Below are positions 934 through 21,377 of a stretch of 32,387 nt of DNA, in pieces (position 1 is the stretch's first letter; the number at the start of each line of letters is the position of its first letter). The DNA is taken from positions 1 through 32,387 of the forward strand of contig JAJYJH010000021.1 in NCBI GenBank assembly GCA_021789695.1, written 5' to 3'. The position numbers and the translations under genes were made by a program. Source of the DNA: a bacterium. GTDB lineage: Bacteria > Elusimicrobiota > Elusimicrobia > Elusimicrobiales > UBA9959. The notes below the pieces were generated by a model. The model did not search any database. It had not been told where the DNA came from and saw only the letters and a list, made by a program, of their open reading frames with translations.

Positions 934-975
934 AGGGCGCGACTTTAGGGCACCATTACCCTGCAGTTGCGCCCT
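934..975. other. inverted repeat between convergent genes
   Basis: Arms of 7 bp (AGGGCGC at 934-940 and GCGCCCT at 969-975) with a nested GGG/CCC pair lie between the converging methyltransferase and the giant secreted protein gene, and reach into the latter's stop codon. It could act as a bidirectional hairpin, but there is no T-run on either strand, so I do not call it an intrinsic terminator. Confidence 0.4.
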
Positions 976-3900
976 ACCTCAGCTGCATGCCGCAGCGGAA
1001 ACCCAGCGTAGCGTCAGAGAACGTCGGGATCTGCCCCATGAAGAAGGACAACGGTCCCGAGGTCGCGCTCGAGATGGGAGTAGTGTTATAAGATCCACCG
1101 CGGGCGGTCATCGCCAGCGGCGCCTGCACCGACCCGGCCGCCATTTCCCCGTCGCCCCAGGCTCCGGCGCCGGTGTTGGGAGTATATAGTCCCCAGTCGG
1201 AGACCAGTTCCCACAGCGAGCCTATCATGTTCTCCGCGCCGAAAGCCGAGACGCAGGCCCCGCCGGCACCGGTAGTAGTAGGGCCGGTGCCGCTGGTGTT
1301 ACAGCTGCCTGCGGGGGTTCCGGCTGCGGCCGCCTGCCATTCCGCGTTAGTTATCAGATGCTTGCCCTCGTTGGCGCATGCCAGATCCGCCTGGAGCCAG
1401 GTGATATAGGCGGAAGGGGTGACCCCTGACACACTGCGCGCGTAGATCGTTTTTCCGGTGCCCGGGCCGCAATCGTGTCCGTCGCTAGAACATGGATAAT
1501 TAGCGGAGGCCGTACCGTATTCAGTACCCCCTGTAGGCGCCGACCAGACGGAGGCCTCGTACTTGTCCACACAGAAGTCTCCGACCTGGACCAGAATATC
1601 GTTAGGGTCATTTGGATTCGTGCAGGAAAGTACGCCCCCTCCGCCTCCCCCGCCGGCGATGTTGCTGGCATAAAAGGCGCCTGTATTAGTCATGCTGGCC
1701 ACTATTACACCCGAAGAATCGCGCCAGACCTGTATATAGCCGCCGCTTCCCGCCACGTCGAGGCGCGCGCCCGCAGAAGCCACGCCGATGGCGACGTTCC
1801 CGAGATTGGTCATCCCAAACCCTCCGGCGTCGCTGCCGGCGGACAGAGTGGCCGAAAGGCTGCCGCCGCCGCCGCCGCCGCCGCCGGCCACCGTGCCGGT
1901 AGCTATCGGCAGGAAAAAGCCGTTAAGATTAACGTAGAGACCTCCCTGGCCAGAGAAGGCGGCCGAATTGTAATAAAGGGCCCCGGCGCCGGCGCCGGAA
2001 GGCTGCGCGGTGAGATTGGCCAGCGCGAGGTAGCCGGAAGCGCTTATCGTGGACGCCAGCAGGCCGCCCGCGGAAACGCCGCCCCCGGCCGAGACGGGGC
2101 CGGAGGCACCGATCCCGCCGGCCACGCCAAGCCCGCCGGAAACCGTCATGCTGGAGTAGGCTGTCAGGTGCCCGGTCTCTGTTATATCTCCGATGTTCAC
2201 CATGTTCTGCCCTCCGGCGTCGCCGCCCGCTGTCAGCACGGAGGAAAGCGTCCCTCCACCTCCGGACGGAAGGTTCCTGAGCTGAGAGCCGTCGGCATAG
2301 AGCACGCCTGACGAGGTCATAGTGGCCACCACGACGCCGCCGGCGTCGCGCCAGAACTGCGCGTAGCCGGCAAGGGAAGGCATGACGTCCAGGCTGGCGC
2401 CTGCCGCTGCCCCTGTCACGCCCAGCGCGCCGCTGACGACAAGGCTGGTGGAGATCTGCACACCCTGCGCCCCAGCCGCGGCCGAAAGGGCGGAAACGTT
2501 CAAGATGTTGAACCCCGCCATATTTATATCTTTGGTGGCTATGTGGTCCCCGAAGTCGTCCCCCCCGCCCACACCGTGGAGAGCCGAACCGTCCAGCGCC
2601 GGCAGTCTGCCTGAGCCATCCAGCTGCACCAGCTGTCCCGCACCGTTGAAGACGTTCCCCTGCAGCGTCACGCTCGAAGCTTTTAGGGTTAACGCTCCGC
2701 CGCCGGCGCCGTCACCGGCAAACTCGTTTGCGTTGGAAACGACTCCCGTCATGCCGCCGCCGCCGGCCACCGTGCCGGTAGCTATCGGCAGGAAAAAGCC
2801 GTTAAGATTAACGTAGAGACCTCCCTGGCCAGAGAAGGCGGCCGAATTGTAATAAAGGGCCCCGGCGCCGGCGCCGGAAGGCTGCGCGGTGAGATTGGCC
2901 AGCGCGAGGTAGCCGGAAGCGCTTATCGTGGACGCCAGCAGGCCGCCCGCGGAAACGCCGCCCCCGGCCGAGACGGGGCCGGAGGCACCGATCCCGCCGG
3001 CCACAATCATACCTGTGGAAATCCGCAGAGCCGGCACTCCCGGAGCTGCGGTAAGGCTGGAGATATTAAGAACGCTGAACCCCGCCATATCTATGTCTTT
3101 GGTGGCGACGTGGTCCCCGAAGTTGTCGGAACCGCTGACTCCGCTGAGAGCAGAGCCGTCTCCGTAATACTTGGCCCCGGCGGGCAGATAGACGTTAGAA
3201 GAGATGTATAGCCCGCCGTAGTACTGGGGCGTGGACGAGGAGATAACTACGTCAGCCGCGACCACAAACCTGGGAGAGGCCACTCCGGAGCCTCCCGTCA
3301 CCGTTACACCTGAGGAGGTAAATATCCCGCCCGAGGCGGTGATGCTGCCCACGTTCACAATGCCGAACCCGCCCGCGTCGTCCCCTGCGGCCAGCGTTGC
3401 GGACAGAGTATCCACGACATTGGCCCCGGTCTGGTCGGAACTGCAGACGAGGTTCCCGCTGAGGTCCACCGTAAGCTTGTCGGTCCCGGTGCAGTGGAAA
3501 GTGTCGAACTTTACCCCGCTGCCTGTGCCGCCGCTTATCTCCAGGCGGGCGGTGGGCGGATTTATCCCAATTCCCACGTTACCGGAGTTCACGGAAAGGC
3601 CTCCGGAGCTGCCGTCCCCGGAAATCCAGTATCCGTTAGTGTCAAGATTGCGAGTCAGAGTATGGTTCCCGAGGTTGTCCCCCGACGGCAGCCCGCGCAG
3701 CGCCGAAGCGTCGGCGTAGAGGACGCCGGCGGCCGACATGGAGGAGACTACGGTACCGTCGGAGGCGCGCCAGATCTGAGTATATCCGCCGGCCGACTGC
3801 ACGTCCAGGCGCGCAGCGGGCGCGGCCACTCCCATGCCTATATTCCCGTCGTCGCGCACCACCAGCAGCGGGCTGAAGGCCTGGTTCTCGGCCAACAATG

Positions 3901-5872
3901 CGTTGGAGGCGGCGGTGTTGTCCGCCCCTGTGACGCGCAGCTTGCTCACGCCCGCGTCCATAGTGCCTATGGCCACCATGGACGATGCCCCCACCGTGTA
4001 TACGGTGTTGGAGGTAACGCCCCAGAGAGAATCCGAGGATTCCAGGTTAAAGGTTCCGTTAAGCGTCACCCAGCCGCCGCCGCTGTAGCCCTGGAATGCG
4101 GCCCCCGTGTAGCGGATAGTGCCGGCGGCAGTTTTGTTGGAATTGCCTATCCGCACTCCTCCGTTGACGTCCAGCGTCTCCTGCGGGGAAGAGGTGCCTA
4201 TGCCGACGCTGCCCGATGCCACTACCAGGCCGGAGGAGATGTAGACACCGGGGACGGAGAGCGCCTGCGCGGTGAAGGCCGCGGTCGAGGAGAAGACGGA
4301 CGCCCCCGCGACGGTCACGCTGGAATATACCGTCACCGGGCCGGAGGCTGTGACGGCGCCGGCGTCCTTCACGTCGAAACCCGACATATTGAGCGCCTGG
4401 GTGGCTGTATGGTTGCCCAGGTTGTCCGCGCTGGGGAGCCCTCTCATATGGGACGCGTCGGCGTAAAAAGCGCCGGTGTCCGTCATGGAGGCAACCGCCA
4501 CTCCGGCTGAATCGCGCCAGATCTGCATATAAGTGCCCGGAGCGGAGGCCTGCACGTCGAGCCTGCCCACCGCAGTCCCTGCTCCGATGGCCACGCTCCC
4601 GAGGTTGACCATCCCATAGCCGCCGGCGTTGGCGCCCGCGTTGAGGGTGGCATCGAGGGGATCCACGATATTTCCGGAGGCGGCGCCTATCCCGGTAAGC
4701 CCCGATCCGTCGCCGTAATATTTCGCTCCGGGGGGGAGGTAGATATTGGTGGAAACCAGGACCCCGCCGTAATAGTTAGGCGCCGCGGAGGAGACGCGCA
4801 CCCCCTGGGACAGCGTCAGCGCGGCGGCCGAAACGCCGCGGACATCCGTTACCGTCAAGCTGCTGATGAAGGTAGCTGGAGAAGAAAGTAACGGCACGTT
4901 CTGGGACAGCCTGGCTTCCGGCAGGGAACCCGAGGCTACAGCCGAAGCGTCCAGCCCCGTCAGGCCGGAACCGTTCCCGTAATATTTCGCTCCGGCGGGG
5001 AGGTAGACGTTGGTGGAGACCAGGATCCCGCCGTATTCGGCTTGGGAAGCCGACGAGATAAGCACTTCTGGCGCAAAGGCGAGGCTGGAAGCGCCCACGG
5101 CGCCGGCGTTCACGATGCTCTGTCCGCCCGCGTCGTTGCCTGCGCCGAGAGTGGCGGACAACGTGTCGACCACGTTGCCGGACGGCAGGTTCCTGAGCCC
5201 GGAAGCGTCGGCAAAAAGCTCGCCAGAAGCGCTCATGGAGGCCACTAGCACCGCGCCGCTGGCGTCGCGCCAGAACTGGGAGTAGCCAGCGCTCGAGGAG
5301 GTGTCAGGCTTAATATCCAGCGCCGCCGCCGGGATGGGCACGCCTATCCCGGCACGGCCTGAGAAAGAGACATAGTAGCCGTTCGCGGACACGCTCCAGC
5401 CGGCAGCGGAGCGCTGCGCTGTGCCGTCAGAAAAGACCAGTTGCCCCGGGCCGGATAGGCGCAGGTCTCCCCCGTTCACGGTAAAAGTCCCGGTGGAGGA
5501 TTCCGCCGTGAGAGAGTGCAGGGCGTAAACGGAGGAATAAAGCGGGTCCGGGGGCAGCGGAACGCCGGACACCGTCATCACCACGTAAGGCGTGATATCC
5601 TTCCAGTCTATCGCGGCGAACTGCGCCCCGTTGGACGCGCCAAGTTGATACCGGAAAAGCCCGGTTGAGACCACAATGTCTGTGGAGCCGGAATCCCAGT
5701 ACCTGGACGCGCCAGAAACGTCGGTAATATAGAACTCCATGGGCACCGTGCCGCTGAAAAGGCGCCCGTCCTTCCTGAGAGTCCCCTGGTAGCTTATCAG
5801 CCCGGGAACAGCCGCGGAAGCGACACCGCAGGCCGCGAACAGGGCCGCTACGACAATATACATCCTCTTCAT
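974..5872 (-). CDS. giant secreted modular repeat protein with C-terminal FGE/SUMF1-like domain
   Basis: 1632 aa. I chose the ATG at 5872 because it starts a good signal peptide (MKRMYIVVAALFAACGVASA) and sits behind GAGGTGAG; an upstream in-frame extension has no such features. After the leader comes a YQGTLRKDG...F domain typical of bacterial tail-fibre-like surface proteins. The body is built from interleaved, imperfect modules: a WRD..G.VVASM...G..YADAS.LR.LPSG unit (about residues 200, 450, 700, 1175, 1385), a YYGG..VSTN.YLPAGAKYYG unit (about 280, 365, 885), and an LSATL.AG.DAGG..MVN unit. From about 1415 to the end lies an FGE-sulfatase/C-type-lectin-like domain (DKYEAS, NAEWQAAAAG, SLWELVSDW, RGGSY, GFRC). 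I see no active-site evidence for formylglycine synthesis, so a binding fold is likelier. It is the last gene of the exported-protein operon. Function unknown; surface adhesin or receptor-binding protein is an inference. Confidence 0.85.
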   Translation of the reverse strand: MKRMYIVVAALFAACGVASAAVPGLISYQGTLRKDGRLFSGTVPMEFYITDVSGASRYWDSGSTDIVVSTGLFRYQLGASNGAQFAAIDWKDITPYVVMTVSGVPLPPDPLYSSVYALHSLTAESSTGTFTVNGGDLRLSGPGQLVFSDGTAQRSAAGWSVSANGYYVSFSGRAGIGVPIPAAALDIKPDTSSSAGYSQFWRDASGAVLVASMSASGELFADASGLRNLPSGNVVDTLSATLGAGNDAGGQSIVNAGAVGASSLAFAPEVLISSASQAEYGGILVSTNVYLPAGAKYYGNGSGLTGLDASAVASGSLPEARLSQNVPLLSSPATFISSLTVTDVRGVSAAALTLSQGVRVSSAAPNYYGGVLVSTNIYLPPGAKYYGDGSGLTGIGAASGNIVDPLDATLNAGANAGGYGMVNLGSVAIGAGTAVGRLDVQASAPGTYMQIWRDSAGVAVASMTDTGAFYADASHMRGLPSADNLGNHTATQALNMSGFDVKDAGAVTASGPVTVYSSVTVAGASVFSSTAAFTAQALSVPGVYISSGLVVASGSVGIGTSSPQETLDVNGGVRIGNSNKTAAGTIRYTGAAFQGYSGGGWVTLNGTFNLESSDSLWGVTSNTVYTVGASSMVAIGTMDAGVSKLRVTGADNTAASNALLAENQAFSPLLVVRDDGNIGMGVAAPAARLDVQSAGGYTQIWRASDGTVVSSMSAAGVLYADASALRGLPSGDNLGNHTLTRNLDTNGYWISGDGSSGGLSVNSGNVGIGINPPTARLEISGGTGSGVKFDTFHCTGTDKLTVDLSGNLVCSSDQTGANVVDTLSATLAAGDDAGGFGIVNVGSITASGGIFTSSGVTVTGGSGVASPRFVVAADVVISSSTPQYYGGLYISSNVYLPAGAKYYGDGSALSGVSGSDNFGDHVATKDIDMAGFSVLNISSLTAAPGVPALRISTGMIVAGGIGASGPVSAGGGVSAGGLLASTISASGYLALANLTAQPSGAGAGALYYNSAAFSGQGGLYVNLNGFFLPIATGTVAGGGGMTGVVSNANEFAGDGAGGGALTLKASSVTLQGNVFNGAGQLVQLDGSGRLPALDGSALHGVGGGDDFGDHIATKDINMAGFNILNVSALSAAAGAQGVQISTSLVVSGALGVTGAAAGASLDVMPSLAGYAQFWRDAGGVVVATMTSSGVLYADGSQLRNLPSGGGGTLSSVLTAGGDAGGQNMVNIGDITETGHLTAYSSMTVSGGLGVAGGIGASGPVSAGGGVSAGGLLASTISASGYLALANLTAQPSGAGAGALYYNSAAFSGQGGLYVNLNGFFLPIATGTVAGGGGGGGGSLSATLSAGSDAGGFGMTNLGNVAIGVASAGARLDVAGSGGYIQVWRDSSGVIVASMTNTGAFYASNIAGGGGGGGVLSCTNPNDPNDILVQVGDFCVDKYEASVWSAPTGGTEYGTASANYPCSSDGHDCGPGTGKTIYARSVSGVTPSAYITWLQADLACANEGKHLITNAEWQAAAAGTPAGSCNTSGTGPTTTGAGGACVSAFGAENMIGSLWELVSDWGLYTPNTGAGAWGDGEMAAGSVQAPLAMTARGGSYNTTPISSATSGPLSFFMGQIPTFSDATLGFRCGMQLR
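1862..1885. repeat. GCC trinucleotide microsatellite (8 units)
   Basis: Eight GCC units encode a poly-glycine stretch on the minus strand. The corresponding site in the other copy of the 252-bp duplication (2753-2764) has only four units, which points to slippage after the duplication. Confidence 0.85.
1874..2125. repeat. 252-bp exact direct repeat, copy A
   Basis: I read this as base-for-base identical to 2753-3004. The offset is 879 bp (293 codons), so the duplication is in frame and gives two identical 84-residue segments in the secreted protein (about residues 1249-1333). The encoded segment runs from a Gly/Ala-rich linker through a YLALANLTAQ...LYVNLNGFFLP block. Confidence 0.95.
2753..3004. 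repeat. 252-bp exact direct repeat, copy B
   Basis: Identical to 1874-2125, encoding about residues 956-1040 of the same protein. All other modules of this protein are diverged, so this pair is a recent duplication or gene conversion, or an assembly artefact. Confidence 0.95.
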
Positions 5873-5877
5873 AAAGC

Positions 5878-6693
5878 TCACCTCTTCAAGTTCCCGGCAC
5901 CGGCCTTCTTGAGGACCAGGGAATGGTAGTACAGCGCTTCCTCGTCCCTGCCGTCGAAGGATAGCACCTTGTCGAAATACGCGGCGGAGCCAGTCCAGCG
6001 GCCACGCGAGTACAGGGAAACGGCCTCCGACATGTTCCACAGCTGCCGCTCGACGATGGCCTTGAGACCGGCTATTTTCTCCGCCCTTTTAAGCTGCGCT
6101 TCCGCGGCGCCGGAAAAAGGCAGGCCGCCGTACTTGGCGTGCAGTTCGGAATCTCTGGAGAAAGCCAGCGCCGCCAGCATCCTGGGATCAGCTGTATCGC
6201 GGCCAAGCGCCAGGTAGGGATAGTTCCTTTTTATGGTCCTGTAAAAAATCCCCATTATCTCCCTGTCGGAGGAATCGAGCAGGGGGGCGGTGTCCGAATA
6301 GACGGGGAAGTCCCTCAGCAGGGCCTCATAGGCCTCTACAGCGCCGCGAACCTTATCCGCGTTGGAGGCCATGGAGCAGGCTTCCGAAAAATCCCGTTCC
6401 CAGGCCCTCAAGCGCCTTTTTTTAGCTTCCATCATGCTTTCCTGGCTCTCCTGCGCCTCCTGAGCCCCGTTCAGCAGGCGCTCACGCTCTGCCTCGGCTG
6501 CCATGCGCCGGGAGTCAACCGCTTGCCTGGCGGCAGCGTCAAGCGCGGCGTGCGCCGAGGCGTCGCGAGGATCCGCCACAACTCTGTCTATAAGCGCGAC
6601 AAGCCCTGCGGGCCGTCCTTGGTCCGCGGCCACTGCGCCAGGGATCCCCAGCAGCGCCGCCAAAGCCGCGGCGGCCAAGACAGGAGGCCTCAT
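5878..6693 (-). CDS. exported TPR-like protein of unknown function
   Basis: 271 aa. The N-terminus is a signal peptide (hydrophobic residues 3-22, ending AVAADQG). Residues about 60-105 are charged and rich in Glu, Gln and Lys, likely coiled coil. The C-terminal third (SLYSRGRWTGSAAYFDKVL, then DEEALYYHSLVLKKAG) looks like TPR helices. No catalytic motif is visible. The ATG overlaps the TGA of the upstream PorV-like gene (ATGA) and the stop lies 5 nt before the giant protein's ATG, so it is translationally coupled within the operon. A periplasmic scaffold for the neighbouring outer-membrane or secreted proteins is plausible but inferred from context only. Confidence 0.75.
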   Translation of the reverse strand: MRPPVLAAAALAALLGIPGAVAADQGRPAGLVALIDRVVADPRDASAHAALDAAARQAVDSRRMAAEAERERLLNGAQEAQESQESMMEAKKRRLRAWERDFSEACSMASNADKVRGAVEAYEALLRDFPVYSDTAPLLDSSDREIMGIFYRTIKRNYPYLALGRDTADPRMLAALAFSRDSELHAKYGGLPFSGAAEAQLKRAEKIAGLKAIVERQLWNMSEAVSLYSRGRWTGSAAYFDKVLSFDGRDEEALYYHSLVLKKAGAGNLKR

Positions 6694-20667: not shown

Positions 20668-21048
20668 ATGTCATCGTTCATGGTGATAGAAGACGATCTT
20701 TCCATGCGTTTCCTGGTCAAGGAGACGCTGAAATATCTCGGCCACACGGAAATAGTCTCCGTGGACAACGTCGAGTCGGCTCTTGGATATCTGAAGGCTG
20801 GGAAAGTGCCGGAGCTGATGTTCCTTGACCTGATACTGCCCGGGGAGCCGGGCTATTCCCTGGCCAAATACGTGAGGGAGAGCCACCCGGAGGTTAAGAT
20901 TATAGTTGTGACCGGCCTGAGCGAGGAGCAGTTGCTGCGCCGCCTCCCGGGACGCAACTACGACGCCGTCCTGTACAAGCCTTTCGACCACCGCCAGCTG
21001 AAGGAAGCCGTTGAAAAGTTTTCCCCTAGTACCCGCGGCAGGGAATAG
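20668..21048 (+). CDS. single-domain (CheY-like) response regulator
   Basis: 126 aa, receiver domain only. The acidic pocket is E8-D9-D10, the phospho-acceptor Asp54 lies in FLDLILPG, Thr82 in VVTG, and Lys104 in YKPF, so all key residues are present. There is no DNA-binding or enzymatic output domain; it may act by protein binding or as a phosphorelay intermediate. GGGGAGG precedes the ATG by about 10 nt. The gene is divergent from the histidine kinase, the probable cognate partner, and runs into the group II intron-like element on the other strand. Confidence 0.92.
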   Translation: MSSFMVIEDDLSMRFLVKETLKYLGHTEIVSVDNVESALGYLKAGKVPELMFLDLILPGEPGYSLAKYVRESHPEVKIIVVTGLSEEQLLRRLPGRNYDAVLYKPFDHRQLKEAVEKFSPSTRGRE

Positions 21049-21068
21049 GATAGGGGCGGAGGCGAATG

Positions 21069-21352
21069 TGCCGCCGGACGTGCGGGTACGCATCCGGCGG
21101 TTCAGAAAGCGGCTTTAACCTCCACACCTGCGAAGTCCGGCGCATAAGCGCTTCGACGTTTCCATCACGCCCGGCGCAGCCGCCTCCGACCGGACGGATA
21201 CATCCCCGTCCTCGGCGTACTGCATGAACGCGCGGCCACGCTTCTTTCAGCGTGTGCCTCGCGCCATACTGCCTTGCGCTTCGCCCGAGTTCCCTGCGAC
21301 CTGTCTCTCCGGAGGACTTTCACCTCCAAGCTTGGTTTCATGCCGGGCGCAG
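21069..21352 (-). mobile_element. ORF-less group IIC intron-like element
   Basis: Read on the minus strand, the element starts CTGCGCCCGGCATGAAACC, like the group II 5' end GUGCGCCCGGC with G1 replaced by C. GGAGGTGAAAGTCCTCC (21327-21311) follows, then a CGCAAGGC segment (21278-21271) and CGCTGAAAGAAGCG (21252-21239), the order seen in domain I of IIC introns. Near the 3' end GAACCGCCGGATGCG pairs with CGCACGTCCGGCGGC (21103-21069): a domain V hairpin with the CGC triad typical of class C (21099-21097) and the two-base CG bulge. Much of distal domain I and domain II appears missing, no reverse transcriptase is present, and I find no domain VI. It lies 3 nt behind a terminator T-run, the classic IIC site. 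Likely a deletion derivative or relic; splicing ability is doubtful. This fills the longest gene-free stretch (21049-21399). Confidence 0.75.
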
Positions 21353-21354
21353 AT

Positions 21355-21377
21355 AAAAAAACCGGACTTTCGTCCGG
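21355..21377 (-). terminator. rho-independent terminator of the infC-pheT-TSCPD operon
   Basis: CCGGAC-GAAA-GTCCGG, a perfect 6-bp stem with a GNRA tetraloop, is followed by seven T on the minus strand, 23 nt after the stop of the TSCPD gene. The intron-like element begins right after the T-run. Confidence 0.9.

Follow-up and report, generated by a model that had tools for sequence, protein, structure and literature searches.

The window, by which we mean the whole 32,387-nt stretch of DNA that was analysed, carries on its minus strand, at 21045-21352, an element of about 308 nt which, when aligned with full-length relatives, is a real group IIC intron derivative and no compact ribozyme; in the same alignments it is resolved into two intron ends with a shred of a reverse transcriptase (RT) gene between them. 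Compared with six sister copies in the same genome, it is the most decayed of the seven; it is a dead relic, neither spliceable nor mobile, and most likely has no role. The window copy is an ordinary relic, and it is the family that deserves a second look. We think it probable that the copies are non-autonomous group IIC introns with internal deletions, forming a family specific to this genome, and that an intact relative supplied the RT and the targeting RNA. The family can be accounted for in either of two ways, as miniatures mobilised in trans or as full-length insertions overwritten by recombination. The parts of the window copy and its immediate neighbours are the following.

20668-21048, plus strand: convergent receiver-like (response-regulator-like) gene, from the list of open reading frames
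21045-21070, minus strand: the intron 3' end (...CCCCTATCCTAT) with the 3' half of domain VI, placed by comparison with sister copies, e.g. C49
21071-21123, minus strand: end of the open reading frame (ORF) and domain V (hairpin 21101-21071)
21131-21238, minus strand: RT ORF remnant (108 nt) around the active-site motif, with YADD changed to YAED, from its translation
21239-21352, minus strand: intron positions 1-114, that is, the 5' end (G1 changed to C) and the first domain I hairpins
21355-21377, minus strand: Rho-independent terminator CCGGAC-GAAA-GTCCGG followed by T7, from the sequence, 3' of the pheT operon gene

Full-length introns of 1,851 nt with a group II RT are present in the congeneric genomes G015, G003 and G023, while that of G027 is cut by a contig end. 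The RT of the full-length intron scores 414 bits with TIGR04416, and its closest solved structure is the GsI-IIC RT (E 1.5e-130). Against the G015 intron, window copy positions 21239-21352 are 86% identical to intron positions 2-114, positions 21131-21238 are 83% identical to 1152-1266, and positions 21071-21123 are 92% identical to 1753-1805, the copy jumping from intron position 1266 straight to 1753. The sequence-only reading had placed the 5' end of a class C intron at 21352 of the minus strand (CTGCGCCCGGCATG, with G1 changed to C), followed in order by a GGAGGTGAAAGTCCTCC hairpin, a CGCAAGG, a GCTGAAAGAAGCG segment and a domain V hairpin. All of these were recovered, and the class assignment holds, as both positions 1-114 and the 3' end, including the domain V hairpin, align with the full-length relatives. 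Positions 1-114 also occur in the six sister copies, where G1 is present; in C4, domains V and VI are intact too. The domain V triad has a G-U pair in G015 and a G-C pair in the window copy.

Other parts of that reading had to be revised. The element does not stop at 21069 after about 285 nt, but ends at about 21045. It had been described as having no clear domain VI; half of this domain is present, its 5' arm having been lost in a deletion of about 19 nt between two GTCCGGCGG repeats. The absence of an RT was only partly right because the middle of the element (21238-21131) is an RT gene remnant around the YADD motif, although nearly all of the RT has indeed been lost. The idea of a shrunken ribozyme fails: the element lacks EBS1, domains II-III and the greater part of domain I, and RT coding sequence makes up part of the supposed core. 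The term relic was well chosen for the window copy, in which the 5' splice site has C in place of G1 and both the 5' end and domain VI are broken. By descent, the element belongs to IIC, as both homology to a group II intron with a class C RT and insertion at a terminator were found. It retains domain V and is without the domains I-III, EBS1, G1 and intact domain VI of a functional group II intron; it does not encode the RT of an autonomous retroelement, of which only the 108-nt remnant is left; and the helper RT that would accompany a trans-mobilised ORF-less intron was not found in the same genome.

The 5' exon, or target motif, of the window copy is the pheT terminator, which ends ...TTTTTTTAT at 21353. 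At its other side, the 3' end of the copy supplies the TAG stop (21046-21048) of the convergent receiver-like gene, which in the empty allele of the sibling species G007 stops at a TAA over the terminator. Elsewhere in the window, positions 974-6040 of the minus strand encode a very long Gly/Ser/Ala-rich repeat protein (ORF call of 1688 aa), the C-terminal part of which, judged by eye, resembles a formylglycine-generating-enzyme or sulfatase-modifying domain.

The element was recognised only via its full-length relatives, because Rfam failed on the window copy. A scan of the window at the gathering score returned tRNA only and no intron element, and the group II check suggested by the sequence-only reading gave no model match at E<=10, where the region of the element produced chance matches only. 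In the sister copies C4 and C59, the domain V model RF00029 reached 31.7 and 28.5 bits, both below its cut-off of 40 bits. The full-length G015 intron was matched by RF02001 (131 bits, positions 85-254) and RF01998 (50 bits, positions 272-357), which cover domains I-IV, and by RF00029 (41.6 bits). Sister copies were also considered as complete ORF-less ribozymes of ~550 nt, a candidate ruled out by comparison with the full-length introns, in which copy positions 115-230 correspond to RT sequence.

The genome is a 2.45-Mb metagenome-assembled genome (MAG), 95.7% complete and in 63 contigs. Six further copies match the window copy at 94-96% identity over 229-230 nt, with E-values as low as 1e-104, and one more match covers the first 61 nt only; these matches are far beyond chance. 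The proposed genome search was thereby borne out for the copies, while the RT sought with them was found only as remnants. The window copy (W), C2, C4, C5, C42, C49 and C59 share one internal deletion of ~1 kb, and C50 is an eighth copy. The common deletion removes intron positions 115-1158, with its junction at a 7-bp repeat (AGAAGCG), and takes with it domains II-III and the greater part of both domain I, including EBS1, and the RT gene. Secondary deletions are common to C4, C49 and C59 (1510 to 1745) and to C2 and C5 (1350 to 1605); C42 has a separate secondary deletion and is also missing its 3' end and the DNA flanking it, and all of the seven except C42 keep both intron ends. The RT shreds of the sister copies match TIGR04416 positions 203-335. 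C50 keeps intron positions 1-53, the ancestral GTGTGCCCAGC end and an RT shred, and its junction differs from that of the seven; it therefore decayed independently. Each of the copies (8/8) is located directly behind a terminator ending TAT.

In G007 the site orthologous to that of the window copy is empty: the same terminator stands there with TTAT behind it, and the terminator and TTTTTTAT are followed directly by the downstream sequence. G007 is contiguous across the junction for five loci (W, C4, C59, C49 and C5), and the element is also absent from its C42 and C50 loci, where the neighbouring sequence differs as well. The flanks of C2 gave no orthologue in this 79%-complete genome, and no match to the 5' end of the element was detected in it. 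Given these empty sites, the simplest reading is that the insertions postdate the separation of the two species. The TAT is already in place at the orthologous empty sites of W, C4, C59 and C5, and at that of C49 with a shifted alignment.

Over 222 aligned positions, 25 bases are common to all seven copies and differ from both full-length outgroups. These include the change from YADD to YAED and several other amino-acid changes in the RT shred, a stretch in which G015 and G003 differ by one residue. Derived bases at positions 4 and 9 are present in all seven copies. Because the 25 shared substitutions, set against the full-length introns, look like drift before separation, the seven most likely descend from one already dead derivative. 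It should be noted that some of the shared changes may already have been present in the lost full-length intron of this species, and these are indistinguishable from such drift. Among the informative sites, 13/28 pairs are incompatible with a single tree, and most of these pairs include site 67 or 86; the cause may be gene conversion or repeated mutation. C2 looks mosaic, having the deletion type and positions 22/26 of C5 and positions 184/189 as in C4 and C59, a pattern that suggests recombination between dispersed copies.

The part of the intron that chooses the target could be located in the full-length relatives. EBS1 was assigned to intron positions 182-184 from covariation with exon positions -3 to -1, with 20/21 pairs formed (best of 5040 permutations) in seven copies that retain the region and have seven different exon endings (six copies come from congeneric genomes, the seventh is from an Omnitrophica MAG); complementarity to the 5' exon end is full in 6/7 of these. 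A truncated, degenerate copy in G004 lies outside the pattern used for this count and does not fit the pairing, having an exon that ends TAT and CAA at the place of EBS1. As EBS1 is inside the shared deletion, the seven copies cannot choose targets themselves. Insertion was most likely steered by an intact intron RNA, because EBS1 is deleted and yet the eight sites and the orthologous empty sites carry TAT.

No such intact intron was found in the 95.7%-complete MAG. A search of this genome with PF00078 gave no RT match, one with TIGR04416 gave only remnants and no RT above the cut-off, no full-length intron was detected, and no intron end lies at any contig end, as judged from the search matches. 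In contrast, contigs of relatives with multi-copy introns (among them G002, G017 and G047) break inside the intron. In the absence of an RT and of dangling intron ends in the assembly, unlike in these relatives, we consider that the helper intron is probably gone from the genome; it may have acted in the past or may lie in the 4% of the genome that is missing.

Congeneric species thus have a full-length, terminator-targeting class C intron of ~1.85 kb, and in the present lineage one derivative has lost intron positions 115-1158. Seven terminators are occupied by copies of this derivative, and further deletions have given sub-types that are each found at two or three sites. We propose that both the RT and the RNA that chose the targets came from an intact relative, now lost or unassembled, since every site has a 5' exon ending in TAT though the copies are without EBS1. 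The window copy would later have undergone the change of G1 to C, the removal of the remaining RT fragment and the loss of half of domain VI. The derived bases 4 and 9 at the very end of every copy and the nested deletion types at several sites speak for spread in trans, and a miniature moved in trans, which the sequence-only reading had offered among its suggestions, may explain the seven copies. The upstream part of domain IV is the binding place of the RT in other group II introns, and its loss from the copies counts against such spread; with EBS1, most of domain I and domains II-III absent as well, a known retrohoming route is hard to draw. In its strongest form, the proposal would make these elements a bacterial counterpart of group III introns, cut down to the 5' end and domains V and VI, spliced and inserted in trans by the ribozyme and RT of an intact relative, directed to targets by its EBS1, and spread to seven or more terminators with further loss of sequence along the way; we advance this version only tentatively and regard it as rather unlikely.

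The same distribution could have come about without any movement of the miniature, if each terminator first received a full-length intron by normal insertion and one dead deletion copy later replaced these introns through homologous recombination (gene conversion). This would explain the TAT exon end at all sites without help in trans and needs no new biochemistry, and the incompatible site pairs and the mosaic C2 speak for it; however, conversion would have had to reach the very end of the element seven times, given the derived bases 4 and 9, while C50 keeps GTGTGCCCAGC, and neither a partly converted nor a full-length copy is left in the genome. We view conversion as a serious possibility that falls short of being likely. 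Independent origin of the same deletion in several full-length copies is highly improbable: the exact AGAAGCG repeat at both deletion ends could favour recurrence, but the 25 shared substitutions, including the change in the RT active site, speak against it unless they were already in the full-length intron of the species, the nested secondary deletions in subsets point to common descent after decay, and C50 demonstrates that such events give a different junction. Finally, the sequence-only reading had raised an intron-derived RNA put to another use. The minus strand of the window copy does fold better than shuffles (z -3.5), as a domesticated structured RNA with a new function might; however, the predicted helices pair the intron with the RT remnants, unlike group II architecture, and the z-score was therefore set aside as evidence of function. 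Across the seven copies, the 5' RNA part (11/114) has as high a share of variable sites as the dead ORF part (12/108), and no selection for a new RNA role is therefore seen. As the window copy has moreover lost G1 and half of domain VI, and the insertion is absent from G007, domestication is barely credible.

Group IIC introns insert behind terminators, and most bacterial intron copies are truncated or inactive (PMC4424553). The window copy resembles the group IIC introns B.h.I1, O. iheyensis and GsI-IIC in its place behind an intrinsic terminator (PMC4424553), a GUGYG 5' end, a class C domain V and an RT closest to that of GsI-IIC, but differs from them in that the RT, EBS1 and domains II-III are absent, domain I is reduced to 114 nt and domain VI to one half, and G1 is replaced by C. 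Like truncated or degenerate bacterial copies, the present ones are decayed and partial; simple truncation in place, however, contrasts with seven copies that share one internal deletion and, except for C42, both ends. Introns without an ORF are uncommon, and a related RT is nearly always present alongside them (PMC4424553). In Thermosynechococcus elongatus, 17 copies that were moved in trans derive from a single ORF deletion and have an intact ribozyme (PMC2882425). This TeI3 family is similar to ours in that one deletion with identical break-points occurs in many copies with ORF remnants on either side, and its spread was inferred to have followed the deletion, promoted in trans by the RTs of related introns (PMC2882425). 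The TeI3 deletion affects domain IV only, with both the ribozyme and the EBS/IBS pairing left intact, whereas the present copies lack EBS1 along with most of the ribozyme, and the genome yielded no helper RT; the reduction in the present family goes much further. The group III introns of Euglena likewise retain only intron ends (domain I-like and VI-like), with activity that would need help in trans (PMC4424553). Those introns are organellar, about 90-120 nt long and spliced in vivo, while the present elements are bacterial, lie in intergenic positions behind terminators and keep domain V. A search of the literature on non-autonomous or Elusimicrobia group II introns returned nothing specific.

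Under either account of the family, the window copy is an inert relic. If miniatures without EBS1 and most of the ribozyme do reach new terminators, a group II ribozyme can serve a degenerate partner in trans in bacteria, and such action in trans is the step usually postulated between group II introns and the spliceosome. Should recombination instead have overwritten full-length introns, the family would clearly exemplify how a dead deletion allele can spread among dispersed copies and eliminate an active retroelement.

Decay and dispersal of this intron were also seen beyond the genome studied here. An otherwise full-length intron in G003 (locus L060, G003:C25) is an inactivated copy: its RT gene is interrupted by an in-frame TAA, and the frame is broken near the QGGPLSP motif. 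An intron of the same family and of full-length size is located behind a terminator in an Omnitrophica MAG (locus L058, contig CAILQW010000056.1), and its RT stretch is 64% identical over an 85-aa query; its occurrence in another phylum suggests horizontal transfer or bin contamination. Solitary 5'-end fragments of this intron were found directly behind terminators at L088 (G003:C34, 33 nt), L080 (G018:C37, 33 nt), L038 (G044:C344, 41 nt) and L074 (G004:C380, about 220 nt), and based on these fragments, loss of the 3' part of insertions seems to be common in related species.
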